Below, piece by piece: positions 29,435-61,560 of a DNA stretch of 64,000 bases. The notes under the pieces were generated by a model. It was not told the origin of the DNA, searched no databases, and saw nothing but the letters and a program-made list of their open reading frames with translations. The first letter of the stretch is position 1. Every line of letters starts with the position of its first letter. The stretch comes from Scylla paramamosain. Taxonomy: Eukaryota; Arthropoda; Malacostraca; Decapoda; Portunidae. The DNA lies in the NCBI RefSeq assembly GCF_035594125.1, contig NC_087158.1:4670001-4734000 (forward strand). Reading direction: 5' to 3'. The translations under genes and the position numbers were made by a program.

Positions 29435-29681
29435 AGGAGGAGGAGGCAGTAGACACCTGCCGAAACGATAATTACTCCCAGTGAGGTCTAAAGCACTGTT
29501 CAGGGGGTGCTGTGAACTTATCATTAAACCCAGCTGTGACCTCACTGAACGTTTCCCTTTGTGTCTCACAACACAAGGGGGCAGTCACAGCCTGCCCTCT
29601 AAAGACAACTCTCTTCCTCCTCACAAAACTGCAAGCACCTAATAACACACACACCCTTCACCCAAAAATTTTAAAATCATC

Positions 29682-39856: not shown

Positions 39857-42800
39857 AAGCAACAATATCGTTGTGGCTGTATTGAGCCAACCTCTTCGTT
39901 GTGGCTAAATGGAGGTAACAATCGAGGTAACAATAAGCTTGCTGCATCGAGGCAGCAAGCTTGTTGTGATTGCATCGGGGCTGCAAGCTCGTTGCGGTTG
40001 CATCGAGCCAACCCCTTCGTTGTGGCTGCATCGAGGCAACAATCTTGTTGTGGCTGCATGGAGACAAATCCTTCGTTCTGGCTGCATTGATGCATCAGTC
40101 TCATTATGGCTGCATAGAGCAAACCCACTCGTTGAGGGAGCATCGAGGAATCAAGCTCGTTGTGACTGCATCGAGGCAAGAATCTCGTTGTGGCTGCATA
40201 GAGCCGACCCCCTCATTGTGGCTGCATCGAGACAACAATCTCGTTGTGGCTGCATGAAACCAACTTGTCCGTTTTGACTACATCGAGGCAGGAATCTCGC
40301 AGTGGTTGCATCGAGGCAGCAAGCTCTTTGTGGCTACATCGACGCTCGTGTTGGCTGCATCGAGTCATCTCCCTTGATGTAGCTGCATCGATGCATTGTT
40401 GCATCGATGCAACCTACCACCTTCACCTACCACAAGCACCTACAATGCTGTATCTAGACAACAATCTTATTGTGGCAGCATAGAGGCAACAATCTCGTTG
40501 TGGCTATATCGAGGCAGCAATCTCGTTGAGGCAGCATGGAGCCAATCCGATATTTGTGGCTGCATCGAAGTAACAAGCTCATTGTGGCTGCATCGACCGA
40601 AACCCTTCCTTGTGGATGCATCAAGGAAACAATATCGTTCTGGCTGCATCGAGCCAACACTCTCATTGTTGCTGCATCGAGGCAACAATCTCGTTGTGAC
40701 TGCAGAGATCCAGTCCCTTCGTTATGGCTGCATCGAGACAACAATTTCGTTGTGGCTCAATCGAGGCAGCAAGTTCGTTCTGGCTGCATCGAGGGAACAA
40801 TCTTGTTGTGGCTGTCTCGAGCCCAACCACCTCGTTGTAGCAGCATTGAGATAACAATCTCGTGGCTGCATAGAAGGAAAAATCTCGTTTTGGCTGCATC
40901 GATCCAACGACCGTTTTGTCACTACATCGAAGCAACAAACTCGTTGTGGCTGCATCGAGGAAGCAAGGTCGTAGAGGCACCATCGAGGCAATAATCTTGT
41001 TTTGGCTTTATCGAGCTAAAACACTTTTTCGCTGCATCGAGGCAACGGTCTCTTTGTGGCTGCATTGAAGCAACAATGTCGTTGTGGCTGTATTGAGTTA
41101 TCCTCTTTTTTTTTTTGTGGCTAAACGGAGGTAACAACGACTTTGCTGCATCAAGGCAGCAAGGTCGTTGTGATTGCATGAAGGCTGCAAGTTTGTTTTG
41201 GCTGCATCGAGCTAACCCCCTCATTGTGGCTGCATCGAGGCAACAATCTCGTTGTTGCTGCATGAAGCCAAATACTTCGTTCTGGCTGCATCGAGGCAAT
41301 AACCTCGTTGTGGCTGCATCGAGCCAACCCACTCGTTTTGGCTACATCAAGGAAGCAAGCTCTTTGTGGTTGCATCGAGGCAATAATCTCTTTGTGGCTG
41401 CGTCGAACCGACCCCCTCGTTGTCGCTGCATCGAGGCAACATTCCCGTTGTGGCTGCATTTAGCCAGCAATCGAAGCATTGAGGCAACCCTCCCTAGTTG
41501 TGGCTCCATAGAAGCAGTAAGATTGTTGTGGCTCCATCGGGGTAAAATTCTCGTTGTCGCTGCATCGAGATTGTTAGCTTGACGCAGATACAACAATATA
41601 GTTTCCTCGATGAAGCCACAATGAGATTGAACTACAACTGCAAAGAGACAACAATCTCGTTGTGGCTCCATCGATGCAGCAAGCTCGTTGCGGTTGCATC
41701 GTGGCAACACTCTCTTTGTGGCTGCATTGAACCAACTCCATCGTTGTAACTGCATCGAGGCAAAAATCACGTTGTGGCTGTATTGAGGTATGATCCTCGT
41801 TGTGACTGCATCCAGTCAACAATCTCGCTTTTACTGTATAGAGGCAACAGTCTCGTTGTGGCTGCATTTAGGCAGCAATCTCGTTGTAGCTGCATCGAGG
41901 CAACAGTCTCGTTATGACTGCATTGAGGCAAACCCCTCGTTGTGGCTGCATCGAGGTTGTGGCTGCAATCTTGTTGTCCCTGCATTTAGACAGCAATCTC
42001 GTTGTGTCTGCATCGAGGAAACAGTGTCGTTATATCCCCATCGAGGCAACCCTCCCTAGTTCTGGCTGTACTGAAGCAGCAAGATCGTTGTGGCTGCATC
42101 GGGGCAAAATTTTCGTTGTCGCTGCATCGAGATTGTTGGCTTGACGCAGATGCAGCCACAATGAGATTGAGCTACAACGTATGCATGTTGCATGGAGGCA
42201 ACAAACTAATTGAGGCTGCATGGAGCCAGTTCCCTCGTTGTGGTTGCATCGAAACAAAAAATCTCCTTCGTTGCGGCTGCATCGAAGCAACAATCACGTT
42301 TTGGCAGCAGTGAGCCATCCTTCTCGTTGTGGTTGCAAGGAGTAGGCAAGCTCTTTGTGGCTGCATCGAGGGAACAATCTCGTTGTGGCTGCATACTCGT
42401 AGATCCAACCCCCTCATTATGGCTGCATCGAGGCAACAGTCTCGTTGTGGCTGTATCGAGCGAACCCCCCTTCGTTGTGACTGCATCAAGGGGACCTTCT
42501 CTGTGTGTCTGCATCGAGGCAGCAAGATCGTTGTGGCTGCATCTAGGGAACAATCTCGTTGTAGCTGTATCGAGCCAAGTCCCTCGTTGTGACTGCATTG
42601 AGGCAACAATCTCGTTCTGGCTACATTGAGGCAACAATCTTTTTGTTGCCGCATCGAGCCCAACCCCTTCGTTATGGCAGCATTAAGGCAACAATCTCGA
42701 TGTGGCTGCATGGAGAAAAAAGAAAAAAAAAAAACTCGTTGTGGATGCATCGAGACAGCAACCACGTTGTCGTTGCATCGAGGCAACATACTATTTGTGT

Positions 42801-45186
42801 TTGCACCGAGGGGACCCCTTCGTAGTGGTTGCATCGAGGGAACAATCTCGTTGTGGCCGAATCGAACCAACATCTTCGTTGTGGCTACATCGAGGCCACA
42901 ATTTCGTTATGGCTGTAACGAGGCAGCAGGATCGTTGTGGCTGCATCGAACCAACATCCTCGTTGTGGTTGCATCGAGGAATCAATCTCGTTGTGGCTGC
43001 ATCGAAGCAAACCCTTCGTTCTGGCTGCATCGAGGAAACAATACCGTTGTGTGTGCATCGAGCTAACCCACTCGTTGTATCTGCATCGAGAAGGAAAGCT
43101 CGTTTTGGCTGCATGGAGGTAAGAATCTCGTTGTAGCTGCATAGAGGCGACCCCCATGTTGCAGCTGCTTTGAGGCATGAATCTCGTTCTGGCTTCATCG
43201 AGGCAGAAAGCTCGTTCTGATAAAATCGAGGCAACAATCTCCTTATAATTGCATCGTGGCAACAATCTCGTTGTGGCTGCATCGAGCGAAACCCTTCTTT
43301 GTAGTTGCATCCATGCAATAACCTCATAGTGACTGCATCGAGGTAGGAAGCTCATCGAGCCAACCCCGTTGTGGCTTTACCCTTTCGTTGTGGATGCATC
43401 GAGGTAACAATCTCACTGTGGCTGCATCAAGGCAGCCAGGTCGTTGTGACTTCATTGAGGAAAGAATCTCGTTGTGTTTGCATAGATAACCCCTTCGTTG
43501 TGGCTGTATCGAGGCAACAATCTATTTGTGGTTTAATCGAGGCAGTAAGCTCATTGTGGATGAAAATATGCAAGAATCTCTTTTTGGCTGTATTGAGCTA
43601 GACCCATCGTTGTAGCTGCATCGAGGCAACAAAGTCTTTGTGGAAGGATCGAGGGAGGAAGCTCGTTGCTGTATCGAGCCAACACTCTCGTTGTGGCTGC
43701 ATCGTGGCAACATTCTCGTTGTGCCTCCATCGAGGTAGCAATCTCGTAGTGTCTGCATCTAGCTCAAGCCCTTAGTTGTGGCTGCATCGAGGCATCAATA
43801 TCGTTGTAGCAGAATCGAGGCAGCAAGTTCGTTGTGGCTCCCTCGAGGCAGCAATCTCGATGTGGCTGCATCGATTGATCCCATTCGTTGTGGTTGCATG
43901 GCGGCAATAATCTCGTTGTGACTGCATCGAAGCAGCAAGCAACAAGTTGTGACTGTGTCGAGGCAACAATCTCGTTGTGGGTGCATCGACCCAAACCCTT
44001 CCTTGTGGCTGCATCGAGGCAACAATCTCGTTTAGGCTTTATCGAGGCAGCTAGCTCGTTGAGGATGGATCGAGACAACAATCTCGTTGTGGCTGCATTG
44101 ATGCAACAATCTCGTTTTGGCGGATTTGAGGCAACAATCTCGTTCTGGCTGCATCGATGCAGCAAGCTCGCTCTGGCTGCATCGAGGCAAAAATCTCGTT
44201 TGGCCGTATAGAGCCCAACCACCTCGTTGTGGCTACATTGATCCAACACCAGCGTTGTCACTGCATCGAGGCAACAAACTCGTAATGGCTGCATCGTGGA
44301 AGCAAGCAGTCATAGTGACTGAATCGAGGCAACAATCTCGTTGTGGCTTTATCGAGCAAACCCCCTCGTTTTCGCTGCATCGAGGCAACAATTTCTTTGT
44401 GGCTACATTGAAGCAACAATCTCGTTGTGGCTGTATTGAGGCAATCAATTAGTTGTGGCTAAATGGAGGTAACAATTGATGTAACAACGAGTTTGCTTAA
44501 TCAAGGCAGCAAGCTTGTTGTGGTTGTATCGAGGCCGGAAGCTTGTTGTGGCTTCATCGAGCCAACCACTTCGTTGTGTCTGCAACGAGCGAACCCACTT
44601 ATTGTGGCTTCATCGAAGGAAGCAGGCTCGTTGTGGCTGCATCAAGGCAAGTATCTCTTTGCGGCTGCATAAACCCGACCCCCTCGTTGTGGCTGCATCA
44701 AGGCAACATTCCCATTGTGACTGCATGAAGCCAACTTGTTCGTTGTGGCTACATCGAGGCAACACTCTCGTTGTGCCTGCATCGAGGCAACACTCTCGTT
44801 GTGGCTGCATCAAGCCAATTTTCTCTTTGTAACTGCATCGAGGCAACAATCTTGTGGTTGCATTGAGGTATGAACCTCGTTTTGGCAACATCCAGTCAAC
44901 AATCTCGTTTTGTCTGCATCGATCCAACAATCTCGGTGTGGCTGCATTTAGGCAGCAATCTCGTTGTAGCTGCATCGAGGCAATGGTCTCGTTATGGCTG
45001 CATCGAGGGAACCCCCTCGTTGTGGCTGCATCGAGGCAACAATCTCGTTGTGGCTGCATTTTAGCCAGCAATCTCGTTGTGGCTGCATGTAGGGAACAGT
45101 GTCGTTAAGGCTGCATCGAGGCAACCCTCCCTATTTCTGGCTTGTTGTGGCTGCATCGGGACAAAATTCTCGTTGTCGCTGAATAG

Positions 45187-45218
<32 letters not shown>

Positions 45219-48190
45219 GGCTTGACGCAGATGTAATATATTTGCCTTGATGCAGCCACAATGAGATTGAGCTACAACGAGATGAAGAATGCTGCATCTA
45301 GCCAACAATCTCATTGTGGCTGCATTGAGACAACAATCTCCTTGTGGCTGTATCAAGGCAACAATCTGGTTATGACTGCGTAAAGACAACATCTTGTATT
45401 AGCTGCATCTTGTAACAACTACATCTTGTATTAGCTGCATCGAGTCAACAATCTCGTTGTGGCTACATTGAGGCATGAACCTCGTTGTGGCTGTATCCAG
45501 GCAACAATCTCGTTTTTGGCTACATAGAAGCAACAATCTCTTTGTGGCTGCATTTAGGCAGCAATCTCGTTGTGGCTGCATCAAGGCAACAATCTCGTTC
45601 AGGCTGTATGGAGGCAACAATCTAATAGAGGCTGCATGGAGCTAATCACCTCGCTGTGGTTCCATCGATGCAACAATATCAATGTTGCTGCAACGAGTCA
45701 AACCCCTCGTTGCGGCTGCAACGGCTGCATCGAGGCAACAATCTCTTTGTAAATGCATTGAGTGAAAAATTTCGTCGTGGATGCACCCGCGTTGTCCCTG
45801 CTTAGAGGCAACAAACTCTTTGTGGCTGCACTAAGAAAACCCCTTCGTGGTGGCTACATCGAAACAATAATCTTGTTGTGGATTTATCGAGCCAACCCCC
45901 CTCTTGTTCGCTGCATCGAGGCTACAGTCTCATTGTTACTGCATCGAGGCAACAATCTCGTTGTGACTGAATCGAGCCAACATCTTCGTTGTGGCTATAT
46001 GGAGACCACAATCTCATTATGGCTGCATCCAGGCAGCAAGCTCGTTGTGGCTGGATCGAGGCGTCAAGCTCGTTCTGCCTACATCGAGCCAAACCCGTCG
46101 TTGTGGCTGCATCGAGGCACCAATCTCATTGTCGATGAATCGAGCCATCCCCCTCGATGTGTCTGCATCGAGACAATAGTCTCTTCGTTGTGGCTTTTTC
46201 GAGGAAACAATCTCGTTGTGGCTGTATCGAGGTCAGAAAATTCGTTGTGGCTTCATCGAGCCAATCCCTTCTTTATAGCTTGTTGTGGTGCATCGTGGAA
46301 GCAAGCCCGTTGTGGCTGGATGTAGGAAGCAAACTCGTTGTGGCTAGATGGAGGATGAAAGCTCGGTGTGGCTGAATTGATGCATAAATCTCGTTATTGC
46401 TGCATCGAGGGAACCCCTCGTTGTGGGTGCATCGAACACGTTGTGACTACATAAAGCCAAATATCTCGATGTTACAACATCGAGGCAACGATCTTGTTGT
46501 TGCTGCATATATGCATTAATCTCTTTTTTGTCTGCATTGAGGCATTAATCTCACTTTTTCTGTATCACGGCAACAATATCGTTATTGCTGCATCAAGGAA
46601 ACCCTCTACTTGTGGCTGCATTGAGGGAACAATTTTGTTGAGTTGCATCGAGCCAACACTCTTCTTGTTGCTACATTGAGGGATAAACCTTGTTTTGGCT
46701 GCATCGAGTCAACAATCTCGTTGTAGCTGCATCGAGGCAACAATCTCGTTGTGTCTGCATTTAGGCTCCAATCTTGTTGTAGCTGTATCGAGGCAAAAAT
46801 TTCATTATGTCTGCATCGAGGGAACCCCATCGTTGTGGCTGTATCGAGATAACAATTTCGTTGTGCCTAAATCGAGCAACCTCGTTGTTGTGGTTGCATC
46901 GAGGCAACAAACTCGTTGTGGCTGCATCGAGGCAGCAAGTTCATTGTGGCTGCATTGAGGAAAAAAGCTCGTTTTGGCTGCATCGAGGCATCAATCTCGT
47001 TGTAGCTGCATAGAGGCAACAATCTCTGTTATGGCTGCATCGAGGCAACAATCTCGTTGTGGCTGCACCAGGGCAATAATTTCGCTGTGACTGCATCGAG
47101 GCAATAGTCTCCTTATGGTTGCATCGAGGCACACATTCGTTGTGGCTGCATCGATTCAACAATCACGTCATGGCTCCATCGATCAAACCTCTTCTTTGTG
47201 GCACCTTTAAGGCAACATTCTCGATGTGGCTGCACCGAGGCAGCGTTGCGACTGCATGGAGGCAACAATATAGTTGTGGCTGCTTCATGCTAACCCCCTC
47301 ATTGTGGCTGCATCGAGGTAGATATTTCGTTGTGGTTCAATCGAGACAAGAATCTCGTTGTGGCTCCATTGAGGCAACAATGTCGTTGTGGCTGGTTCGT
47401 TGGCTGATCGTTGGCTGATCATTGTGGCTGGTTCGAGGTAACAATATCGTTGTGGCTGCATCCTGCCAAACACTTTATAGATGCATCGAAGTAACAATCT
47501 CTTTGTCGCTGCATCGAGAAAGCAAGATCCTTTTTTGCTGCATCGAGCCAACAATCTCGTTGTGTCTTCATAGAGCCAACCCCCTTGTTTTCGTTGCGTC
47601 GAGGCAATAATATCGTTGTGGCTGCATCAGGACAAAAATCTTGCTCTGGCTGAATCGAGGCAGCTATCTCCTTTTGGTTGCATCGGGTCAACAATCTCGT
47701 TGAGGCTGCATGGAGCCAATCTGATATTTGTGGCTGCATCGAAGTAACAATCTCGTTGTGGCTGCATCGACCATAATCCTTCCTTGTGGCTGCATCGAGG
47801 CAACTATGTCGTTCTGGCTGCATCGAGGCAACAATCTCGTTGTGACTGCACCGACCCAGCCCCTTCGTTGTGGCTGCATCGAGGCAACAATCTCGTTGAT
47901 GCTTCATCGAAACAGCAAGCTCGTTGTGGCTCAATCGAGGCAGCAAGTTCGTTCTAGTTGCATCGAGGGAATAATCTCGTTGTGGCCGCATCGAACATAA
48001 CCATCTCGTTGTGGCAGCATCGAGCTAACAATTTCGTGGCGGCATCGAAGGAAAAATCTCGTTGTGGCTGCATCGATCCAACGACCGCGTTGTCACTGCA
48101 TCAAGGCAACAAACTCATTGTGGCTACATCGAGGAAGCAAGCTCGTAGCGTCTCCATCGAGGGGACAATCGCTACATCGAGACTACATCG
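39857..48190 (+). repeat. Satellite B, orientation 2, main block
   Basis: About 8.3 kb of 28-bp units reading TGCATCGAGGCAACAATCTC then GTTGTGGC. Middle variants include GGCAACAATCTCG, GCCAACCCCTTCG, GGCAGCAAGCTCG and GGCATGAATCTCG. Superimposed are long-range duplications, for example 40,500-41,000 with 47,690-48,170, and 41,075-42,180 with 44,408-45,285. A non-repeat interruption of about 45 bp occurs at 40,411-40,455 after two TGCATCGATGCA palindromes. No gene is seen. Confidence 0.93.
45186..45219. repeat. (TTG)n microsatellite within satellite B
   Basis: Eleven or so TTG units expanded from the CGTTGTNG part of a 28-bp unit, directly before an inverted satellite B block with GGCTTGACGCAGAT. 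Confidence 0.9.
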
Positions 48191-48196
48191 TACTAC

Positions 48197-48642
<446 letters not shown>

Positions 48643-48907
48643 TTTTGGTAATGTTGTTCTGTTTCTCCATATAGAGTGATATTCATGCCTTTTAGCATTT
48701 TGTACATACGGAGATCAAAACCTCATAATACGCAATCCTCGCAATGTCTTTTTTGCATTCATGTTTCCATGAATTTTAGCATTTTTCTACGTAACAAGAT
48801 CAAAAACACTTAAAATACATGTTTTTGGTAATGATATACTGTTTGTCCATAGAAGGTTTTCTGCATGCGTTTTAGCGTTTTGGTACGTATGTAGCTAAAA
48901 AAAAAAA
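48643..48907 (+). repeat. Satellite A island inside satellite B territory, block 11
   Basis: Three forward satellite A monomers (TTTGGTAATGTTGTTCTG, CTACGTAACAAGATC, GTACGTATGTAGC) lie between LINE-1x fragment K and satellite B. They end at an A run at about 48,898-48,908 that joins TGGCTGCATCGAACC of satellite B. Confidence 0.88.
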
Positions 48908-50154
48908 ATGGCTGCATCGAACCAACTCCATCGTTGTAGCTGCATCGAGGCAAGCATCTCGTTGTGGCTGCATTGAGGCATGATCCTCCTTGTGGCTGCA
49001 TCCAGTCAACAATCTCGTTTTTACTGCATAGAGGCAACAATCTCGTTGTGGCTGCATTTAGGCAGCAATCTTGTTGTAGCTGCATCGAGGCAACTGTCTC
49101 GTTATGACTGTATCGAAACAATCAACTCTTTGTGGCTGCATCGTGGCAACAATCTCGTTGTCCCTGCATTTAGCCAGCAATCCTGTTGTGTCTGCATCAA
49201 GGAAACAGTGTCGTTATGGCTGCATCGAGGAAACAAGCTCTTTGTGGCTGCATCGAGGCAAGAATCTCTTTGTGGTTGCATAGAACCGACGCCCTCGTTG
49301 TGGCTGCATCGAGGCAACATTTTCGTTGTGGCTGCATTTAGCCAGCAATCTCGTTATAGCTGCATTGAGGGAAGAGTGTCGTTATAACTGAATCGAGGCA
49401 ACCCTACCTAGTTGTGGCTCCATAGGAGCAGCAAGATCTTTGTGGTAAGATTCTCGTTGTCGCTGCATCGAGATTGTTGGCTTGACACAGATACGACAAT
49501 ATAGTTTCCTCGTTGAAGCCACAATGAAATTGAGTTACAACTGCAGAGAGGCGACAATCTCGTTGTGGCTGCATCGATGCAGCAAGTTCGTAATGGCTGC
49601 ATCGAGGCAACATTCTCTTTGTGGCTGCATCGGACCAACTTCATCGTTATAGCTGTATCTAGTCAAAACTCTCGTTGTGGCTGCACTGAGGCATGATCCT
49701 CGTTGTGGCTGCATCCAGTCAACAATCTCGTTTTTACTGCATAGAGGTAACAATCTCGTTGTAGCTGCATTTAAGCAGCAATCTCGTTGTAGCTGCACCG
49801 AGGCAACAGTCTCGTTATGACTACATCGAGGCAACCAACTCTTTGTGGCTGCATCGTGGCAACAATCTCTTTGTCCCTGCATTTAGCCAGTAATCCCGTT
49901 CTGTCTGCATCGGGGAAACAGTGTCGTTATGGCTGCATCAAGGCAACCCTCCCTACTTCTGGTTGCACTGAAGCAGCAAGATCATTGCGGCTGCATCGTG
50001 GCAAAAATTTCGTTGTTACTGCATCGAGATATAACACGCAGATATAACAATATAGTTGCCTCAATGCAGCCACAATGAGATTGAGCTACAGCGAGATAAG
50101 CGATGCTGCATGTAGACAACAATCTTTTTGTTGCTGCAAAAAGATTGTTGCATT
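48908..50154 (+). repeat. Satellite B, orientation 2, left of R2-type copy 1
   Basis: 28-bp units, including two copies of a longer block (48,911-49,543 and about 49,628-50,099) that also occurs near 41,700-42,180 and 44,830-45,281. Each ends with a short inverted satellite B piece. A perfect 14-bp inverted repeat closes the block at 50,117-50,150. Confidence 0.9.
50117..50150. repeat. Perfect inverted repeat adjoining R2-type copy 1
   Basis: Arms CAACAATCTTTTTG (50,117-50,130) and CAAAAAGATTGTTG (50,137-50,150) are exact reverse complements with a 6-nt loop TTGCTG. The second arm ends 4 bp before the first base of the R2-type element. Confidence 0.93.
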
Positions 50155-50332
50155 GGCGGGAGTAACTATGACTCCTGGAGGTCCCGGGATGGTGTCATGC
50201 CGTGACTCCCCGAGTGACGTGAAAAACCTCCTTGAGACTTAGTTACTAGGGAAGCCTGCCTCCTAGTGGCGCCCGCTGGTAACGTAGGCACAAGCCCGAG
50301 GGATTGGGCCTACGGCTAAAGTGCTTACCCCG
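50155..50332 (+). ncRNA. HDV-like self-cleaving ribozyme, R2-type, copy 1
   Basis: The pieces of the HDV double pseudoknot can be placed by eye. P1 is GGCGGG (50,155-50,160) with CCCGCT (50,272-50,277). P2 is GGGAAGC (50,249-50,255) with GCTTACCC (50,323-50,330), with one bulged A. P3 is GCC (50,258-50,260) with GGC (50,268-50,270), closing the loop TCCTAGT. P1.1 is CC (50,262-50,263) with GG (50,278-50,279). P4 is GTAGGC (50,284-50,289) with GCCTAC (50,308-50,313). J4/2 is GGCTAAAG (50,314-50,321), with C at 50,316 as the expected catalytic cytosine. Cleavage is predicted just before 50,155, the first base of the element and within 28S sequence, as described for some R2 lineages. The long P1-P2 joining region (about 88 nt) is unusual for HDV but accepted in R2 ribozymes. 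Confidence 0.78.
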
Positions 50333-50759
50333 CGAGATGAATGTGGGGCTGGGAGTTGGACAAATATTCCATCCTCCCTTCTCAATAAACGTTCATAGAG
50401 TAATGGGACTCCGCCAGGCTTCAGAGCCCAGAACAGCTTCACTGGTCCGGAGTCCTTTCTGCTCCTTCGAGTTCTCTACCTCGTTGGGTGGTGGGCCGTC
50501 AGGGTGATTTGCCGAGTCGGTGGGCTAAACCCACTAACCCTCGACAGCGGTAGTGACTCTGGCGTTTCCGGGATGACGGCCCGCTGGTTTGGGGGGTAGC
50601 GCTCTTCCTGCCCCCAAGGGCCAGCGGGTTCATGGCTTTGAAATGGGGTACACGGGGTGGATGCGGTCCCAGTCCCCCTCAGGTCCGAGGGGCGTGCATA
50701 GAGCCTCCGTGCACGTCCTCTCTTACCCAGAGCGTCCTAGCAGAGCTCGTAGTCTGCGA

Positions 50760-51036
50760 ACGGTTTGTCATGCTGCGGTGGGCCTAGTAGCTCAGGCAGC
50801 CAACCGTCTGGCTGAGGGTGGCGTCCTCAGAACCGGAATCCTGTCGGGGGCGACCTCGGCAGGTAGGTTTCGCATCGCCTGTGCCGTTGAAGACGGTAGG
50901 CGTGAGTAGTGCTGGCTTTAGCCCGCTACCCTGTCGTCCCCTCCAAAGGGGTAATTCTGGCCGCCGGTCCCGGCTGCTTGGTAAACAAGCGCCAGTGAAC
51001 GGCGGCTCAATTAAGTATGACTCTCTCAAGGTAGCC
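50760..51036 (+). other. 3' region of R2-type copy 1, ending in 28S-like sequence
   Basis: This GC-rich, structured region is conserved with copy 2 (GGAATCCTGTCGGGGGCGAC, GGTAGGTTTCGCATC, CTACCCTGTCGTCCCC). Its last stretch, from about 50,990, aligns to 28S (AAGCGC..GT.AACGGCGG...TATGACTCTCTCAAGGTAGCC). In R2 elements the 3' UTR is the RNA structure that the R2 protein binds for target-primed reverse transcription, and this segment is the candidate for that role. The function is inferred. Confidence 0.55.
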
Positions 51037-51275
51037 GAGATTCTTGCATTGAGGCAAGAATCTCGTTGTGGCTGCACCGAGGCCAACTCCTTCGTTATGG
51101 CAGTTTCAAGGCAACTATCTCGATGTGGCTGCATGGAGGAAAAAAAAAAACTCGTTGTGGATGCATCGAAACAACACCCACGTTGTCGCTGCATCGAGGC
51201 AACAAACCATTTGTGGCTGCACCGAAAGAACCCCTTCGTTGTGGTTGCATCGAGGGAACAATCTCGTTGTGGCTG
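51037..51275 (+). repeat. Satellite B between R2-type copy 1 and a LINE-1x fragment
   Basis: It starts with a perfect 11-bp inverted repeat, GAGATTCTTGC (51,037-51,047) and GCAAGAATCTC (51,054-51,064). The rest duplicates about 42,690-42,870, including the GCATGGAGGAAAAAAA-ACTCG interruption. Confidence 0.87.
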
Positions 51276-51436
51276 AATCATCATAGCGACTCCTACACCA
51301 GCCTCGGAGTCCCCATCTGGGGAGGGGACCATAAATGTCCCCAGGTCGGACTGCCTTTCTGTCGACGACCCTAAGTGTCTTTGACACCACTCTCAACTTT
51401 TTCTTCATTAACTTCTGCAACATTCACTGTCTAATG
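51276..51436 (+). mobile_element. LINE-1x 5'-coding fragment L
   Basis: About 160 bp covering the start-codon region through the NFCNI endonuclease motif. The initiator ATG is changed to ATA (TCATAGCGACTCC), and a 1-bp insertion near 51,381 shifts the frame. It has neither 5' UTR nor 3' end, so it is a residual piece left by deletion or recombination. Confidence 0.87.
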
Positions 51437-51868
51437 TATCTAAAATTGAGCTATATTGAGCCAAGCATCTCGATGTGACTACATCGAGGCAACAATTTCT
51501 TTGTTGCTGCATCAAGGTAGGAAACTCGTTGTGTATGCATATAGGCAACAACCTCGTTCAGCTTCAATGAGCCAATACCCTCTTTGTGGCTGCTTCGAGG
51601 CAACAATCTCATTGTGGGTGCATCGAGAGAACAATGTCGTTGTGGCTGAATTGATGCAACAGTCTCGTTGTAGCAGCGTCGAGCTATCCCCTTCGTTGAT
51701 ACACAATCGAGGCAACGATATCGTTTTTGGCTTCGGAACCTCATCGTTGTACCTGCATCGAGGCAACAATCTTGTTTTGGCTGCATCGAGGCAACACTCT
51801 CTTTGTGGCAGCATTTATGCAGCAATCTTGATGTAGCCGTATCAAGGAGTATCTCGTTTTGGTTGGAT
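51437..51868 (+). repeat. Satellite B between LINE-1x fragment L and R2-type copy 2
   Basis: Degenerate 28-bp units (GCATCGAGGCAACAATYTC, GTTGTGGC). No gene is seen. Confidence 0.87.
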
Positions 51869-52051
51869 GGCGGGAGTAACTATGACTCCTGGAGGGCCCG
51901 GGATGGTGTCATGCCGTAACTCCCCGAGTGACGTGAAAACCCTCCTTGAAACTTAGTTACTGGGGAAGTGTGCCTCTTAGTGGCGCCCGCTGGTAACTCA
52001 GGAACAAGCCAGCCGGGGCATGATTTGGCCTATGGCTAAAGTGCTTCCCCA
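51869..52051 (+). ncRNA. HDV-like self-cleaving ribozyme, R2-type, copy 2
   Basis: The core matches copy 1. P1 is GGCGGG (51,869-51,874) with CCCGCT (51,986-51,991). P2 is GGGGAAG (51,962-51,968) with CTTCCCC (52,044-52,050), now seven perfect pairs, whereas copy 1 has a bulge. P3 is GCC (51,972-51,974) with GGC (51,982-51,984). J4/2 is GGCTAAAG (52,034-52,041), with the candidate catalytic C at 52,036. P4 is poorly preserved (CTCAGG against CCTATG), so this copy may cleave weakly or not at all. Confidence 0.7.
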
Positions 52052-52740
52052 CGAGATGAATGTGAGGTGGGTAGTTGAACAATATTCCATCCTCCTTTAT
52101 CAGACATTATAGAGTAATGGGGTTCCGCCAGGCTTCGTAGCCCAGACCAGCTTCACTGATCCAGAGTCCTTCTGCTCCTTCGAGTTCTCTATCTCGTTGG
52201 GGTGGGGGCCGTCAGGGTGATTTGCCGCGTCGGTTGGCCAAACCCACTTACCCTCGACATCGGTAGTCACTCTGGCGTTTCCGGGATGACGGCCCGCTAG
52301 TGGTAGCGCTCTTCCTGCCTTCAAATACCAGCGGGTTAATGGATTTGATAATGGGGTACACGGTGCGGATGCGGTACCAGTTCCCCCCGGGTCCGAGGGG
52401 CGGGCATACAGCCTCTGTGTTCGTCCTGAGGACCAAGGGCGTCCTAGCAGAGTTCGTAGTCTGCGAAGCGGTGTTTCGTGATGCGGCGGGCCTAATAAAG
52501 CAGGTAGCCAACCGCCTGGTCTGAGGGTGGCGTCCTGACTGGAATCCTGTCGGGGGCGACCTCGGCAGGTAGGTTTCGCATCACCTGTGCCGTTGAAGAC
52601 GGTAGGTGTGAGTAGCGCTGGCTCTTCCCACTACCCTGTCGTCCCCCAAAGGCGTTGTCCTGGCCGCCTGCTATCGGCTGCTTGGTCACCAAGCGCGGGT
52701 AAACGGCTGTCGGACAAAGCATGACTCGATCAAGGTAGCC
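51869..52740 (+). mobile_element. Non-autonomous R2-type element (SIDE-like), copy 2
   Basis: An 872-bp relative of copy 1 with the same two ends: GGCGGGAGTAACTATGACTC at the start, and 28S-like sequence at the end. Here the 3' piece includes AAGCGCGGGTAAACGGC (52,691-52,707), an exact 17-nt match to 28S as I remember it, and ATGACTC..TCAAGGTAGCC (52,721-52,740). The interior differs from copy 1 by many substitutions and small indels, so the two are not a recent duplication. No convincing target-site duplication was found, because the right flank AACCTCTTCGTTGTGG is ordinary satellite B. No ORF is credible. Confidence 0.74.
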
Positions 52741-53948
52741 AACCTCTTCGTTGTGGCAGCATCGAGGTAACAATCTCCTTGTGGTCACAACTGACATTGT
52801 GACCACCTCGTTTTCGCTACATCGAGGCAAGAAACTCGTTGTGGCTGGATGGAGGAAGCAAGCTCGGTGTGGCTGAATTGATGCATAAATCTCGTTATTG
52901 CTGCATCGAGGCAACCCCTCGTTGTGGGTGCATCGAACACGTTGTGACTACATAAAGCCAAATATCTCGATGTTACAACATCGAGGCAACAATCTTGTTG
53001 TTGCAGCATCGAAGCATTAATATCTTTTCTTTTTTCTGCATTGAGGCACTAATCTCATTTTGTCTGTAACGAGGCAACAATATCATTATTGCTGCATCAA
53101 GGAAACCCTCTAGTTGTGGCTGCATTGAGGGAACAATCTTGTTGAGTTGCATTGAGCCAACACCCTTCTTATTGCTACATTGAGGATTAAACCTTGTTGT
53201 GGCTGCATCGAGTCAACAATCTCGTTGTATCTGCATCGAGGCAAAAATCTCGTGTCTGCATTTAGGCACCAATCTTGTTGTGGCTGCATCGAGGCAAAAA
53301 TTTCATTATGTCTGCATCGAGGGAACCCATCGTTGTGGCTGTATCGTGATAACAATTTCGTTGTGCCTAAATTGAGCCAACCGCGTTGTTGTGACTGAAT
53401 CGAGGCAACAAACTCGTTGTGGCTGCATCGATGCAGCTATTTCGTTGTGGCTGCATCGAGGAAACAAGCTCGTTTTGGCTGCATCGAGGAATTAATTGTA
53501 GCTGCATAGAGGCACCAATCTCGTTGTAGCTGCATCGAAGCAACAATCTCGTTGTGGGTACATCAAGGCAGCAAGCTCGTTGTGTCTACATCAAGGGAAC
53601 AATCTCATTTAGGCTTCAACGAGCCAACAACTTCGTTCTAGCTAGAACAAGGCAAGAATTTGTTGGCACCAATCTCGTTGTGGCTGTACTGACCCAACCT
53701 CTTTGTTCTTGCTAAATTGAGGTAACAACGATCGAGGTAACAACAAGTTTGCTGCATCAAGGCAGCAAGCTCGTTGTGGCTGCATCGAGGCTGCAAGCTC
53801 GTTGTGGCAGCATCGAGCCAACCCCCTCGTTGTTGGTGCATCGTTCTGGCTCCTTCAAGGCAAAAATCTCATAAGGCGATATCGAGGCAACAGTCTCCTT
53901 GTGGCTGCATCGAAGCAACAATATCATTTAGGCCAGGTCAGGCCTAAA
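52741..53948 (+). repeat. Satellite B, orientation 2, right of R2-type copy 2
   Basis: 28-bp units. The stretch 52,845-53,540 is a diverged duplicate of about 46,340-47,010, with the same order of odd units (GCATCGAACACGTTGTGACT, GATGTTACAACATCGAGG). Near 53,690-53,810 it carries another block seen at 39,860, 41,075 and 44,408. Confidence 0.9.
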
Positions 53949-54824
53949 AGGTCAGGAATACGAGTAGGGTGTTGCACCAGTTGCTCTAGGTCATGGAGGA
54001 TAGCAAAGTTGTAGGCTAGTTCACCAGGATGGTCAGTGAAGGAAGAGGAAAGCCAAAGCTGGTGGTGAACATTGAAGTCTCCAAGAATGGAGATCTCTGC
54101 AAAAGGGAAGAGGGTCAGAATGTGCTCCACTTTGGAAGTTAAGTAGTCAAAGAATTTCTTATAATCAGAGGAGTTAGGTGAGAGGTATACAGCACAGATA
54201 AATTTAGTATGAGAGTGTCTCTGTAGTCGTAGCCAGACGGTGGAAAACTCGGAGAGCAGGTTAAGTCATTGCGCACATAAACGCAGCATCCAGCTTTGGA
54301 TCGAAAATGAGGATAGAGAAAGTAGGAGGGAACAGAAAAGGGGCTACTGTCAGTTGCCTCAGACACCTGAGTTTCAGTGAGGAAAAGATGAGGTTTAGAA
54401 GAGGAATGTGGTGTTCTGCAGATTGAAAATTAGATCTTAGACCGCGAATGTTGCAGAAGTTAATGAAGAAAAAGTTGAAAGGGGTGTCAAGACACTTAGG
54501 GTCGTCGACAGAAAAGCAGTCCGACCTGGGGACATTCATGGTCCCCTTCCCAGATGGGGACTCCGAGGCTGGTGTAGGAGTCGCCATGATGATTTTAAAA
54601 TTTTTGAGTGAAGGGTGTGTGTGTTATTAGGTGCTTGTAGTTTTGTGTGGAGGAAGAGAGTTGTCTTTAGAGGGCAGGCTGTGACTGCCCCCTTATGTTG
54701 TGAGACACAAAGGGAAACGTTCAGTGAGGTCACAGCTGGGTTTAATGATAAGTTCACAGCACTCCCTGAACAGTGCTTTAGATCTCACTGGGAGTAATTA
54801 TCTTTTCGGTAGGTGTCTACTGCC
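53949..54824 (-). mobile_element. LINE-1x copy I, 5' part only
   Basis: Minus-strand copy with the 5' UTR (start lost by about 10 bp at 54,824) and the endonuclease coding region from ATG 54,587 down to RIPDLLG near 53,960, then satellite B. The ORF is broken by small deletions near 54,255 (ALESSEF region) and 54,390. The RT and 3' end are missing. This is not what target-primed insertion leaves, so a later deletion removed the 3' part. Confidence 0.87.
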
Positions 54825-54918
54825 TTAGTGAAGTGCGTTCACTGGGCCTTCGGGCTTATGCATTCGAAGGCCACCCACCAGTGGGTGGCCTTCGTTGATT
54901 CATATAATAATAATAATA

Positions 54919-54969
<51 letters not shown>

Positions 54970-54970
54970 G
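54825..54970 (+). other. GC-rich hairpin sequence followed by a (TAA)n tail
   Basis: An 80-bp non-satellite piece contains CGAAGGCCACCCAC (54,865-54,878) and its exact reverse complement (54,881-54,894) separated by CA, plus a third GGCCTTCG at 54,845-54,852. It is followed by ATTCATA and about 65 bp of (TAA)n (54,905-54,969). The hairpin plus trinucleotide tail looks like the 3' end of a SINE or LINE whose body is missing. I do not recognise the family. Confidence 0.6.
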
Positions 54971-57269
54971 TTTCCCTCGAGGCAGCACGGCCGTTATTTA
55001 TACACCAAAGTAAATGTCTCGTTGCATCGAGCCAATCCCCTTGGTGTGGCTGAATGGAGGCACAAACCTCGCTGTGGCTGAATTGAGGCAATAATCTCGT
55101 TGTGGCTGTATCGAGGCAAGAATCTCGTTGTAGCTGCATCGATGCAGTAATCTCGTTGTGGTTGTATCGAGACACCAATCTCCTTGTGGCTCCATCGAGG
55201 TAACAATCTCGTATCTGCAGCGAGGCAGCAAGCTCACTAAGGCTGCATCGAGGCAACAATCTCGTTGTGTCTACATCAACAAGAATAGTCTCGTTGTGGC
55301 TGTAATGAGGCAGCATGCTCGTCGTGGCTGCATCGAGGCAACAATGTAGTTATGGCTGCATCAAGGAAGCAAGCTCCTTGTGGATACATCAAAGCAAATG
55401 TCTGGTCGAGCTGCATCAAGCCAATCTCCTCGTTGTGGCTGAATCGAGGCACAAACCTCGTTGTGGCTGCATCGAGCAACAATCTCTTTTTGACTCCATT
55501 GAGGCAACAATCTCGTTGTGGCAGCATAGAGGCAACAATCTCGTTGTAGATACATCGAGGCACCAAGCTCGTTGTGGATGCATCAAGGCAACAATCTTAT
55601 TGTGGCTCCATTGAGCCAACCATTTCGTTGTCGCTTCATCGAGACAACAATCTCATTGTGGCTGCAATGAGGCAAATGTGTCTTTGTGGCAGCATCGAGA
55701 CAACCACCTCATTGTGGCTGTGGCTGCATCGAGGAAACAATGTCGATGTGTTTACATCGGGGTTCCTATCTCGTTGTGGCTGCATGGAAGTAAAAATCTT
55801 GTTATTACTCCATAGACGCAACGAGGCACAAACTTCGTTGTGGTTGCATCGAGGTAACAATCTCTTTGTGGCTGCATCTATCCAAACCCCTCGTTATGGC
55901 TGCATCGAGGCAACAAGCTCATTGTGGCTGCATAGAGGCAACAATCTCCTTCTGACTGCATCAAGCCCAACCCCTTTTTTTGGCTGCATCTCGTTCTGGT
56001 AGCATCGAGGTAGCAAGCTCGTTGTGGATGCATCAAAGTAAATGTCTCGATAAGCTGCATCGAGCCAACCCCCTCGTTGTGGTTGTATCAAGGCAGAAAC
56101 CTCGTTGTGGCTTTATCGAAGAACCAATCTCGTTTTTAGCTGTATCGAGGTAACAATCTCTTTGTAGCTGGATCGAGACAGCAAGTTCGTTGTGGCTACA
56201 TCGAGGCACCAATCTCATTATGGCTGCATTGAGGCAAGAAACTCGTAGTAGCTGCATCGAAGCAACAATCTCGTTGTGTGTGCATCGAGCCAACCCTTTC
56301 GTTGTGGCTGCATCGAGACAACAATTTCGTGGTGGTAGCAAGCTCTTTGTGAATGCATCGAAACAACAATCCCGTTGTGTGTTCATCGAACCCAACCTTT
56401 CGTTTCGGCAGCATTGAAACAACAATCTCGTTGTAGCTGCATGTAGGCAGGAAGCTCCTTTTTTTCCAGCGAGGCAACAATCTCGTTGTGGATGCATCGA
56501 GACAGCAAGTTCGTTCTGGCTGCATTGAGGCAGTAATCTCGTTATGGCTTCATTGAGCCAGCCTCCTGGATGTGACTGCCTCCAGGCAATAATCTCTTTG
56601 TGACTGTATCGCGCCAACCCTTTTGTTATGGTTTTACCGAGGCAATCCCCTTTTTGTGGCAGCATCGACGAAAAATCTCATTGTTGCTGCATCGAGCCAA
56701 CACCATCTTTGTGGCTTAATAGACGCAACAAGCTCGCTGTGGCTGCATTGAAGCAGCCTCATGGCAGCAAGGTCATTGTCGATGCATCAAGTCAACAATT
56801 TGGTTGTGGCTCCATCGAGGAAACAATATCGTTATGGCTGCATAGAGGCAACCCCTTCGTTGTGGCTCCATCGAAACAACAATTTTGTGGCTGCATCACG
56901 GCGGCAAGCTCATTGTAAATGCATCGAGGCAACATTTTCGTTAAGCTGCATCGAGCCAACCCTTTCGTTATGGCTGCATCGAGGCAACAAAATCCTTGTG
57001 GCTGTATCAAGGCAACAATCTCGTTGTGGCTCTATCGAGGGAACAGCGTGGTTATGGCAGCATCGAGGCAACTATTTCGTTGTGGCTGCATCGAGGCAAG
57101 AATCTCTTTATGGTTCCATCGACACAACCCCCTCATTTTGTCTTCATCGAACCAATAATTACGAGGCACCAATCTCATTATGGTTACAATGAGGCAAAAA
57201 TCTCGCTGTAGCTGCTTTGAGGCAGCAAGATCTTTGTGAATGCAACAATCTTCGTTTCGCCAGCATTAA
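54971..57269 (+). repeat. Satellite B, orientation 2
   Basis: About 2.3 kb of 28-bp units (GCATCGAGGCAACAATCTCG, TTGTGGCT), degenerating towards the CR1/L2-type copy. ORFs on both strands, up to 210 codons, are repeat artefacts. Confidence 0.92.
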
Positions 57270-58559
57270 AGCAACAATTTGTCCGTTCCACTCATCTACC
57301 ACTATTTGAGAACCAATTTTTTTCAATCTCCTTCCTAAACCTAAATTTTTCAAGCTTGAACCCGTTATTTCTTGTTCTACCCTGGTTGCTGATCCTAAGA
57401 ATTTTGTCTACATCCCCCTTATTATAACCCTTATACCACTTAAAGACTTCTATCACGTCCCCTCTTAACCTACGTCTCTCTAAAGAATGTAAATTTAAGA
57501 GCTTCAACATCGCCTCGTAAGGAATACTCCTCATCCCCTGTATCCTTTTAGTCATTTTCCTCTGTACTGATTCTAATAAACCTATAACTTTCCTGTAATG
57601 TGGGGACCAGAACTGCACAGCGTAGTCTAGATGAGGTCTGACCAGCGCCAAGTTTAACTTTAATATTACTTCCGGCCTTCTACTTTTAACACTCCTAAAA
57701 ATGAATCCTAGTACCCTATTTGCCCTGTTCCTGGCTTCTATGCATTGTTTCCCTAGATGGAGTTCAGAGCTAACTATAACTCCTAAATCTTTCTCGTACC
57801 CTGTAACTACCAGAGTTTGGTTGTTTAATGTGTGCCTATTGTGTGGGTTTCGTCTACCTACGCTAAGCACTTTGCATTTATTGATATTAAATTGCATTTG
57901 CCATCTATCCATCAATTCATTCATTAATAGAATGAATTGAATCTGCCTGGAAGGCAATGGCATCCGATTCTGACCTAATTAATCTACCTATCTTTGTGTC
58001 ATCCGCAAATTTACTAACATCACTACTAATTCCACTATCCAAGTCATTGATATATATTAGAAATAACAATGGCCCTAATACTGATCCCTGTGGCACCCCA
58101 CTAATTACATGACCCCACTCGGATTTCGAGCCGTTTATTACCGCTCTCTGTCGCCTGTCACTAAGCCATGACCCTTTCCAGCCTAACACCTTTTCATCTA
58201 TCCCGTGTGCCCTAACCTTTCTCAGAAACCTTTGATGGGGTACCTTGTCAAATGCTTTACAGATATAAGATATCATAACTATCACCATTATCTACTGCCT
58301 CGTACACCTTACTGTAAAAACCTAACAAGTTTGTCAGGCAAGACTTCCCCTTCGTGAAGCCATGCTGTGACTGATCTATCAAGTTATGTTTGTCTAAATG
58401 TTCCCTAATGTTCCTCGCTATTATTGACTCTAACATTTTACCTACAACTGAAGTTAAGCTGACAGGTCTATAATTAGACGCTAAAGTTTTATCTCCTTTC
58501 TTAAAGATGGGTACTACATTAACCTGCCTCCACATTACTGGTACCTTACCTGACTCCTG
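57270..58559 (-). mobile_element. CR1/L2-type LINE copy Q, truncated at both ends
   Basis: Minus-strand LINE carrying most of the reverse transcriptase and C-terminal region but no endonuclease, 5' UTR or 3' tail. It is the same family as the fragments at 28,693-29,434 and 48,197-48,281. Its 5' edge abuts LINE-1x copy J. Its 3' edge enters satellite B inside a VVDEWN block that is out of frame. Confidence 0.87.
57292..58535 (-). pseudogene. Reverse transcriptase of CR1/L2-type LINE copy Q, three frames
   Basis: Three overlapping open stretches on the minus strand give the protein in order. 58,535-58,257 carries VPIFKKGDKTLASNYRPVSL and HGFTKGKSCLTNLL. 58,288-57,917 carries [31 protein letters not shown] and [10 protein letters not shown] with both catalytic Asp residues. 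57,963-57,292 carries [41 protein letters not shown] and RRLRGDVIEVFKW. At the first junction the LDFSKAFD block has lost its leading part (YLDFS) through a small deletion, removing the first catalytic Asp. The frame shifts between the blocks mean it is not functional. Confidence 0.83.
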
Positions 58560-61500
58560 ATTTTAAAATCATCATGGCGACTCCTACACCAGCCTCGGAG
58601 TCCCCATCTGGGGAGGGGACCATAAATGTCCCCAGGTCGGACTGCCTTTCTGTCGACGACCCTAAGTGTCCTGACACCCCCCTCAACTTTTTCTCCATTA
58701 ACTTCTGCAACATTCGCGGTCTAAGATCTAATTTTCAATCTGTAAAACACCACCTCTCCTCTTCTAAACCTCATCTTCTTTTCCTCACTGAAACTCAGGT
58801 GTCTGAGGCAAATGACAGTAGCCTCTTTTCTGTTCCCTCCTACTTTCTCTATCCTCATTTTCGATCCAAAGCTGGATGCTGCGTTTATGTGCACAGTGAG
58901 TCAACCTGCTCTCGTGCCCACGCTCTTGAATCTTCCGAGTTTTCCACCATCTGGCTACGACTACAGAGTCACTCTCATACTAAATTTATCTGTGCTGTAT
59001 ACCTCTCACCTAACTCCTCTGACTATAAGAAATTCTTTGACTACTTAACTTCCAAAGTAGAGCACATTCTGACCCTCTTCCCTTTGCAGAGATCTCCATT
59101 CTTGGAGACTTCAATGTTCACCACCAGCTTTGGCTTTCCTCTCCCTTCACTGACCATCCTGGTGAACTAGCCTACAACTTTGCTATCCTCCATGACCTAG
59201 AGCAATTGGTGCAACACCCTACTCGTATTCCTGACCGTCTTGGAGATACGTCCAACATTCTTGACCTTTTCCTGACCTCTAATCGTTCTGCTTATGCTGT
59301 CACCCTTTCTTCTCCGTTGGGCTCCTCCGATCACAATCTCATATCTTTATCTTGTCCTATCACTCCAATCCCACCTCAGGATCCTCCTAAGCGAAGGTGC
59401 CTCTGGCGTTTTGCCTCTGCTAGTTGGGGGGACCTGAGGAGGTATTTTGCTGATTTTCCTTGGAATGACTACTGCTTCCATGTCAGAGACCCGTCTTTGT
59501 GTGCTGAGCACATAACAGAGGTGATGGTGTCTGGCATGGAGGCATAGATTCCTCACTCTTTTTCTCGTCCTAAACCTTCTAAACCTGGGTTTAACACAGC
59601 TTGTTCTCGTGCTATACATGATAGAGAGGTGGCCCACAAAAGGTACTTAAGCCTTCCATCACCAGAATCTCATGCACTTTATACTTCTGCCTAGAACCAT
59701 GCCAAGTCTGTTCTCCAACTAGCCAAAAACTTCTTTATTAACAGAAAATGTCAAAACCCTTCAGGATCTAACTGTCCCTCGTGATTTCTGGCATCTAGCC
59801 AAAAATATCTCCAATAACTTTGCTTCTTCTTCTTTCTTTGCTTCTTCTTCTTTCTTTCCTCTATTTCAACCAGATGGCACCACTGCTATCACATCTATTT
59901 CTAAAGCTGAACTCTTTGCTCAAACCTTTGCAATAAACTCTACCTTGGACTATTCTGGGCTTGTTCCTCCCTCTCCTCCATCCTCTGACTACTTCATGCC
60001 ACCTATTAAAATTCTTTGCAATGATGTTTTCCATGCCCTCGCTGGCCTAAACCCTCGGAAGGCTTATGGACCTGATGGGGTCCTTCCTATTGTTCTCCGA
60101 AACTGTGCCTCCGTGCTTGCACCTTGCCTAGTCAAACTCTATCAGCTCTGTCTGTCAACATCTACCTTTCCTTCTTGCTGGAAGTTTGCCTACATTCAAC
60201 CTGTTCCTAAAAAGGGTGACCGTTCTAATTCCTCAAACTACCGTCCTATTGCTTTAATTTCCTGCCTATCTAAAGTTTTTGAATCTAACAGGAAGATTCT
60301 TAAACATCTATCACTTCACAACCTTCTATCTGATCGCCAGTATGGGTTCCGTCAAGGCCGCTCTACTGGTGATCTTCTGGCTTTCCTTACTGAGTCTTGG
60401 TCATCCTCTTTTAGAGATTTTGGTGAAACTTTTGCTGTTGCCTTGGACATATCAAAAGCTTTTGATTTCCAAACTACCTTCCTACGGTTTCTATCCTTCT
60501 CTCTGTAACTTCATCTCAAGTTTCCTTTCTGACCGTTCTATTGCTGCTGTGGTAGACGGTCACTGTTCTTCTCCTAAATCTTTTAACAGTGGTGTTCCTC
60601 AGGGTTCTGTCCTGTCACCTACCTCTTCTTATTATTTATTAATGATCTTCTAAATCAAACTTATTGTCCTATCCACTCCTACGCTGATGATACCACCCTG
60701 CACTTTTCCACGTCTTTTCATAGACGTCCAATCAGGTAAACATATCACGCAGGGAAACCACAGAACGCCTGATTTCTGATCTTTCTAAAATTTCTGATTA
60801 GGGCAGAGCAAACTTGGTACTGTTCAATGCCTCAAAAACTCAATTCCTCCATCTATCAACTCGACACAACCTTCCAGACAATTATCCCCTCTTCTTCAAT
60901 GACACTCAACTGTCCCCCTCTTCTACACTGAACAACCTCGTATATGCTTGTATGAAGTTAGGTGTTCTGAGACGTCTCCGCCAGTTTTTCTCACCCCCCC
61001 CAGCTGCTAACTCTGTACAAGTGCCTTATCCGTCCATGTATGGAGTATGCTTCACATGTCTGGGGGGTTCCACTCATACTGCTCTTCTAGACAGGGTGGA
61101 ATCAAAAGCTTTTCGTCTCATCAACTCCTCTCCTCTAACTGACTGTCTTCAGCCTCTCTCTTACCGCCGCAATGTTGCATATCTAGTTGTCTTCTACCGC
61201 TATTTTCATGCTGACTGCTCTTCTGATCTTGCTAACTGCACGCCTCCCCTCCTTCCATGGCCTCGCTGCACAAGACTTTCTTCTTTCTCTCACCCCTATT
61301 CTGTCCACCTCTCTAACGCAAGAGTTAACCAGTTTTCTCAATCATTCATCCCTTTCTCTGGTAAACTCTGGAACTCCCTGCCTTCTTCTGTATTTCCACA
61401 TTCCTATGACTTGAATTCCTTCAAGAGGGAGGTTTCAAGACACTTATCCAACAATTTTTGACCACTGCTTTGACCCTTTTATGGGACTGTCATTTCAGTA

Positions 61501-61560
61501 GGCATTTTTTATTAGATTTTTGTTGCCCTTGGCCAGTGTCCTTCCTACATAAGAAAAAAA
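58560..61560 (+). mobile_element. LINE-1x copy J, lacks only the 5' UTR
   Basis: It starts about 14 bp before the conserved ATG (58,574) and runs through the whole coding region and 3' UTR to CCTACATAAGAAAAAAAA at about 61,560. It is 5'-truncated by only about 230 bp. Satellite B follows. It is the only copy with all protein domains from start codon to final stop, although in several frames. Confidence 0.9.
58574..61461 (+). pseudogene. Full-span but broken LINE-1x ORF, copy J
   Basis: Domains in order are the endonuclease (FCNIRG, LTETQ, GDFNVHH-equivalent in a shifted frame, SSDHNLI near 59,325), the linker, the RT (YGPDGVLP near 60,070, [29 protein letters not shown] near 60,450, [11 protein letters not shown] near 60,590, YADDTT near 60,683) and the C-terminal domain ending RHLSNNF at 61,461. 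Lesions include a 1-bp loss in a T run near 59,085, TAC to TAG at 59,545-59,547, a stop near 59,692, a tandem duplication of about 19 bp near 59,825, loss of the DRVWHKAL segment near 60,465 and loss of about 50 bp near 60,940. An 8-C run near 60,994 (7 is in frame) is offset by a 6-G run near 61,062 (7 is in frame). Confidence 0.85.

Follow-up and report, generated by a model that had tools for sequence, protein, structure and literature searches.

Two related units in a minisatellite

A 64,000-nucleotide window of the Scylla paramamosain genome (contig NC_087158.1, positions 4,670,001 to 4,734,000 of the forward strand) contains two GC-rich units whose ends resemble 28S ribosomal RNA gene sequence around the insertion site of R2 retrotransposons. 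Unit 1 (50155..51036, 882 bp) and unit 2 (51869..52740, 872 bp, with a 28S match that may extend to 52742) both lie on the plus strand, 1.7 kb apart in the same minisatellite array and together within 2.6 kb; we annotate them as insertions resembling the short internally deleted elements (SIDEs) of R2. Their identity to each other is 84.5% over 892 columns (BLASTN), or 749 of 862 ungapped columns, so that the copies differ by ∼15%. Each is the sole match of the other within the window (BLASTN, E up to 1e-3). The first 120 columns are more conserved than the remainder (112/120 vs 637/742 identical; Fisher p 0.028). The GC content of units 1 and 2 is 0.596 and 0.578, respectively, with 0.402 in the 2 kb to the left, 0.462 in the 2 kb to the right and 0.474 between them. 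An earlier note made from the sequence alone had described a pair of ∼0.88-kb GC-rich units with identical 5′ ends and 28S-like 3′ ends, and its coordinates, length and pairing hold. Exact-pattern searches of viral and genome contig collections gave 0 matches, a result that says nothing on copy number; one of the viral-contig patterns was plain 28S, used to see if any animal ribosomal DNA (rDNA) is present in collections of this type.

The location outside rDNA and inside a minisatellite, as the earlier note had it, is borne out as well. Both units are hosted by a 28-bp minisatellite (GGCTGCATCGAGGCAACAATCTCGTTGT; 39941..63897, plus strand) that is interrupted by pieces of long interspersed nuclear elements (LINEs) and other DNA, and neither is inserted at the R2 target TTAAGG/TAGCC of 28S. 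Degenerate 28-bp minisatellite occupies much of 33-64 kb in the window, and its orientation flips near 39.9 kb, from reverse complement (33001-40000) to forward (39900-63900). Derivation of the minisatellite from the R2 target was considered and rejected, the local alignment score of 14 being reached by 2208 of 3000 letter shuffles.

Both ends of the units match 28S at the R2 site

As the 28S reference we used the sequence printed in PMC12180492, and positions are counted relative to the R2 site. Alignment to this sequence matched the 5′ ends of unit 1 (50155..50174, plus strand) and unit 2 (51869..51888, plus strand) to 28S -28 to -9, with 20/20 letters in each case. The last 8 nt of 28S ahead of the R2 site are absent from the units, which places the 5′ junction at -9. 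At the other end, both units carry a diverged copy of 28S -43 to -1 (50986..51031 and 52690..52735, both plus strand). This tail stops at the R2 3′ junction AAGG/TAGCC and is followed in unit 1 by TAGCC (51032..51036, plus strand), i.e. 28S +1 to +5 directly downstream of the R2 site, and in unit 2 by TAGCCAA (52736..52742, plus strand), i.e. +1 to +7, of which AA may be flank. Including these letters, unit 1 agrees with 28S -43 to +5 at 41/48 letters plus a 3-nt insertion, and unit 2 with -43 to +7 at 42/50 letters, again with 3 nt inserted in roughly the same position. Aligned to 28S, the terminal 75 nt of each stretch tested score 61, a value reached by 0 of 5000 letter shuffles for either unit, whereas interior 75-mers (29 per unit) score at most 20 and 28. 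The R2 core CCUCCUCGUGG, given as the most conserved part in PMC5035012, was rejected as stand-alone evidence: it is non-diagnostic here, with 71 matches in the window at ≤ 2 mismatches, mostly in the minisatellite.

Three departures from 28S are common to the two tails (the inserted 3 nt, one C to G change and one T to C change), which indicates that the tail had already diverged before the two copies parted. The outer 28S pieces, in contrast, are perfect in both units (20/20 and 5/5). Under uniform drift across all sites, a set of 25 letters would stay unchanged ∼3% of the time (arithmetic from 749/862). On a simple reading, the perfect outer pieces would be host 28S gained at co-transcription, while the diverged tail would belong to the element itself; this suggests that the source copy sat at the R2 site of 28S.

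28S letters flanking the body on both sides would also result if a fragment of rDNA with an R2-type insertion had been transferred at the DNA level, by recombination or circle insertion and with no retrotransposition, and genomes commonly contain pieces of rDNA away from the array. We regard such a transfer as very improbable, because both units end exactly at the +1 position of a predicted ribozyme (see below) on the left and at 28S +5 to +7 on the right, with minisatellite beyond these ends, and because the flanks of the two units are unrelated outside the repeat.

Layout of an HDV-like ribozyme at the 5′ ends

R2 ribozymes, which are of the hepatitis delta virus (HDV) type, often take P1 from 28S; -28 is their most frequent cleavage site and their P4 is highly variable (PMC3774820). 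A candidate HDV-like/R2 ribozyme can be placed at 50155..50330 (plus strand) in unit 1, where descriptor matches were checked letter by letter and the nested part is co-optimal when the stretch is cut at the end of P2. Its order is P1, an 88-nt J1/2, P2, P3, a 7-nt L3, P1′, GG, J4/2 GGCTAAAG and P2′. The predicted pairings are P1 50155-50160 with 50272-50277, a J1/2 stem 50161-50168 with 50240-50247, P2 50249-50254 with 50324-50330 (one bulged A), P3 50258-50260 with 50268-50270, and P4 50284-50289 with 50308-50313; L3 occupies 50261-50267, the P1.1 GG 50278-50279 and J4/2 50314-50321. In unit 1 the 28S piece holds the 5′ strand of P1 and the 5′ strand of the J1/2 stem, and in unit 2 the 5′ strand of P1; just ahead of P2, both units have 8 nt complementary to the 28S part (AGTAACTA/TAGTTACT). 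The corresponding candidate of unit 2 (51869..52050, plus strand; letters likewise checked) has P1 51869-51874 with 51986-51991, P2 51962-51968 with 52044-52050 (7/7 pairs), P3 51972-51974 with 51982-51984, L3 51975-51981, the P1.1 GG at 51992-51993, J4/2 at 52034-52041 and a weak P4. Both tails have lost the letters GGGAGTAAC, which would be rivals of the true P1 and J1/2 strands in pairing.

A strict descriptor, which demands a P4 of at least 4 bp, found unit 1 alone, at base 50155, and missed unit 2; 8 of 1500 random 1.75-kb sequences with the dinucleotide make-up of the units contained a match. The relaxed descriptor, written after the strict version had missed unit 2, drops the P4 rule because R2 P4 is reported as highly variable (PMC3774820). 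It matched three places on both strands of the window, i.e. 50155, 51869 and, on the minus strand, 25301, the last likely by chance. In both units its predicted +1 is exactly base 1; among 4000 random 882-bp sequences, none matched at base 1 and 92 did so anywhere. Random controls were drawn from dinucleotide frequencies (those of unit 1 for the relaxed descriptor) and are not exact shuffles. At the level of layout, the earlier note's predicted cleavage at base 1 of each copy and its placement of HDV-like ribozyme parts in both units stand: the double-pseudoknot order of elements, including the catalytic C of J4/2, is present in both units once P4 is relaxed. A P4 of at least 4 bp occurs in unit 1 only. 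Cleavage within upstream 28S, as by an R2-type 5′ ribozyme, is predicted at -28 from the layout only.

Cut at the end of P2, the unit 1 ribozyme stretch (177 nt) has P1, J1/2 and P3 co-optimal (-70.5 constrained vs -70.5 free), with P1 pair probabilities of 0.495-0.557. P2 was left out of the fold energies, the folding program making no pseudoknots. Pseudoknot-free minimum free energy folds gave z of -2.35 and -1.70, values of little use for a pseudoknotted ribozyme. An Rfam scan of the whole window yielded nothing at gathering level.

The coincidence of base 1 with the ribozyme +1 also bears on another possibility, a different kind of short interspersed nuclear element (SINE) with a 28S-derived head, driven by RNA polymerase III, in which the ribozyme-like fold would be fortuitous. 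28S-derived SINEs exist, and the size and non-coding body of the units would fit. Such an element would make the position of the +1 a coincidence (0/4000 random sequences, as above), and no pair of A-box then B-box stands near the 5′ end: using consensus motifs, we found A-box matches only at 825 (unit 1) and 165 (unit 2), and a B-box only at 511 (unit 1, 2 mismatches). We hold this to be the least probable of the explanations considered.

The unit bodies look non-coding

Substitutions between the unit bodies follow no codon phase (30/27/24), and the lengths of 11 of the 14 indels are not divisible by 3, so that frames are broken; on both counts the body looks non-coding. We also scanned all eight stop-to-stop open reading frames (ORFs) of at least 110 aa that overlap the units against Pfam. 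None gave a match above cut-off, and seven gave no match at E up to 0.1. The eighth, ORF 51021-51371, most of it beyond unit 1, has a match to a cysteine-rich domain that stays under the cut-off (E 0.019, 15.6 bits vs 27) and that we take as chance. No autonomous R2 ORF (zinc finger, Myb, reverse transcriptase, restriction-like endonuclease) was found among these eight frames. Together with the frame-breaking indels, the scan agrees with the non-autonomous make-up claimed previously. SIDEs are defined by an R2 ribozyme and an R2 3′ untranslated region (UTR) with no ORF, and the ribozyme layout and the lack of an ORF are observed in the units.

The flanks point to two insertion events

The common orientation of the units, their spacing of 1.7 kb and their shared array could reflect a single insertion, duplicated later within the minisatellite by unequal exchange. 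The left 60-bp flanks, however, score 13 against each other, whereas 2000 random in-phase pairs average 20.9 and 87% of them reach 13 or more; the right flanks score 20, whereas 150 random pairs average 26.0 and 80% of them reach 20 or more. Flank similarity thus does not exceed that of random in-phase minisatellite, which makes two separate insertions likelier than duplication of a single copy. The 3′ junctions, too, are unlike each other. What a single insertion would explain is that both 5′ junctions seemingly fall at the GCAT position of the repeat (GCATT in unit 1, GGAT in unit 2). This placement was made by eye; the alignment shows it for unit 2 but leaves the last bases of unit 1 unaligned, and with one base of slack a shared GCAT junction is expected about one time in ten by chance. 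It is also weak evidence for a preferred insertion spot in the repeat. Later duplication of one insertion seems to us decidedly unlikely. Poly(A) is absent after both units.

Several other repeats lie in the window. Between the units, the minisatellite holds 159 bp from the 5′ part of a jockey-like LINE ORF (51276-51434), which recur at five further places in the window with 94-96% identity. One LINE is present in several copies (29646-32290 and elsewhere), and the ORF that was scanned has RVT_1 and Exo_endo_phos (Pfam); the LINE proteins of the window presumably resemble jockey-type LINEs from decapod crustaceans. A perfect (TA)89 run spans 48282-48459. Two ORFs in 5297-6190 resemble what we take to be pieces of a Penelope-like element; for ORF 5297-5692, Pfam gave no match.

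Ectopic insertion of R2-type RNA as the favoured explanation

The sequence itself shows 28S pieces at either end, a ribozyme layout, exact 5′ ends and a non-rDNA site. We think it probable that each unit arose when RNA of a SIDE-like R2-type element, short and non-coding and with its source at the 28S R2 site, was inserted ectopically. The source element would be co-transcribed with 28S, and an HDV-like ribozyme, with the 5′ strand of P1 and part of J1/2 contributed by 28S, would cleave at -28 to create the 5′ end of the RNA. The 3′ end of the element would be the diverged 28S copy (-43 to -1), followed by the read-through letters TAGCC or TAGCCAA. A LINE-type reverse transcriptase, either an off-target R2 enzyme or that of another LINE in the cell, would then copy the whole RNA into the minisatellite. 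Of this sequence of events, the cleavage, the 28S-resident source and the enzyme are inferred parts. The explanation is supported by the start of both 5′ ends at -28, the most frequent published R2 cleavage site, and end-to-end copying of a self-cleaved RNA would be the simplest cause of the exact 5′ ends.

Several results weigh against this explanation. No copy resident in 28S was seen, the source being deduced from two copies that both lie outside rDNA, and R2 ancestry would rest on the position of the ribozyme and the R2 3′ junction, not on R2 coding sequence. Constraint on the ribozyme strands could also have held part of the 5′ end unchanged. The covariance-model check proposed in the earlier note, with a background score set beforehand as half of its refutation, went against the ribozyme: RF00094 (HDV) scored 19.9 bits in unit 1 vs a gathering threshold of 50 (E 8.1, i.e. 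background) and had no match in unit 2 (50100-52800, E up to 10). The RF00094 model has no 88-nt J1/2; we still count a score below threshold as a miss. With nine extra 3′ bases in unit 1 another fold wins (P1 probabilities 0.002-0.003), and in unit 2 the nested ribozyme fold, P2 not counted, is 7.5 kcal/mol worse than the free fold, P4 is weak and U replaces C in L3. A possible target-site duplication at unit 1, AGATTGTTGCATTG (50142..50155, plus strand, the last G common to unit 1) and AGATTCTTGCATTG (51038..51051, plus strand), agrees at 13/14 letters but is weak, being equalled in 219 of 4000 random minisatellite flank pairs, and no target-site duplication was found at unit 2. From the descriptor, fold and Rfam results combined, we rate unit 1 as a good candidate ribozyme and unit 2 as a poorer one.

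The earlier note had instead proposed that an R2-derived family spreads outside rDNA. Such a dispersed, non-autonomous family would multiply from host read-through transcripts at many sites, freed by its own P1-carrying ribozyme; a parasite with a 28S-borrowing ribozyme and a target-mimic tail would have colonised the minisatellite, spreading from ectopic copies via self-cleaved read-through RNA. On this view, the loss of GGGAGTAAC from both tails could reflect selection against misfolding. P1 does lie inside the inserted units along with the rest of the ribozyme layout, so that base 1 could be a cleavage point in any read-through RNA, two copies with 15% difference are found within 2.6 kb, and R2 families without target specificity exist (PMC5035012, PMC7650587). 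Yet the TAGCC(AA) that follows the tail, like the perfect 5′ end of 20 nt, appears refreshed from real 28S genes, and two copies only are seen in the window. The R2-type ribozyme layout at -28 upholds the R2 part of that proposal, while the 28S pieces at the ends point to 28S sources and off-target insertions. Because 28S pieces stand at both ends, we prefer off-target insertion and judge a spreading family unlikely.

If off-target insertion is correct, a short element outside rDNA in which a -28 ribozyme is joined to a tail that mimics 28S would be a natural record of off-target use of R2-type RNA, and would bear on R2 site choice and on R2-based gene insertion tools.

Comparison with known R2 systems

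The 28S genes of Drosophila are known to carry SIDEs (PMC3414825), and fish R2s with 28S-like tails are known as well (PMC5035012). Among the titles and abstract openings listed we found no ectopic non-autonomous R2 copies like the units, and no paper joining an R2 retrotransposon with a decapod; most subscription journals lay outside this search. The main text of PMC13188248 contains none of the words crab, crustacean, decapod or non-autonomous.

Drosophila SIDEs need only a ribozyme and a 3′ end bound by R1 or R2 protein (PMC3414825). Like them, the units are short and non-autonomous, with a 5′ R2 ribozyme (a candidate one here), a non-coding body of partly unknown origin and a probable descent from a 28S co-transcript. 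Unlike them, the units reside in a minisatellite rather than in 28S at the R2 or R1 site, and have predicted cleavage at -28 with 28S in P1. In D. willistoni, the R2 SIDE has a poly(A) end (PMC3414825), whereas the units have a 28S-like tail and no poly(A).

In their predicted ribozymes, with 28S from -28 in P1 and a variable P4, the units resemble the R2s of earwig, Nasonia giraulti and silkmoth (PMC3774820) and that of the stick insect Bacillus rossius, which cleaves at -28 and has a degenerate relative that no longer cleaves (PMC4370867). Some of these -28 R2s also share a small 28S deletion at the 5′ junction (PMC3774820, PMC4370867), and a few 28S bases are likewise missing from R2 5′ junctions in a springtail (7 bp) and a sow bug (4 bp) (PMC3774820). 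However, the -28 R2s are 28S-resident with an intact or degenerate ORF, while in the units, located outside rDNA, no R2 frame can be recognised.

28S-like 3′ UTRs are described for seven R2 families, each of them from fish (PMC5035012). The units agree with these and with hydra R2Hm-B in a 3′ stretch that is less 28S-like than the true downstream 28S, and in a 3′ junction at the canonical R2 nick (PMC5035012). The fish and hydra cases are R2 families proper, and the 5′ junctions, known for three of the fish families, lie about 110-130 bp upstream, whereas that of the units is at -9. The tail of the units spans about -43 to -1, and the comparison with the fish tails is one of 28S likeness.

Residence outside 28S is shared with R2NS-1_SMed and R2NS-1_CSi, the two R2 families without target specificity (PMC5035012), and with BLAG 1-6 of Blattella, R2-like elements scattered through the cockroach genome (PMC7650587). 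BLAG elements have an ORF and a separate 3′ flank for each copy; 28S end pieces are not reported for BLAG in the parts of that paper that we cite, whereas both units carry them.

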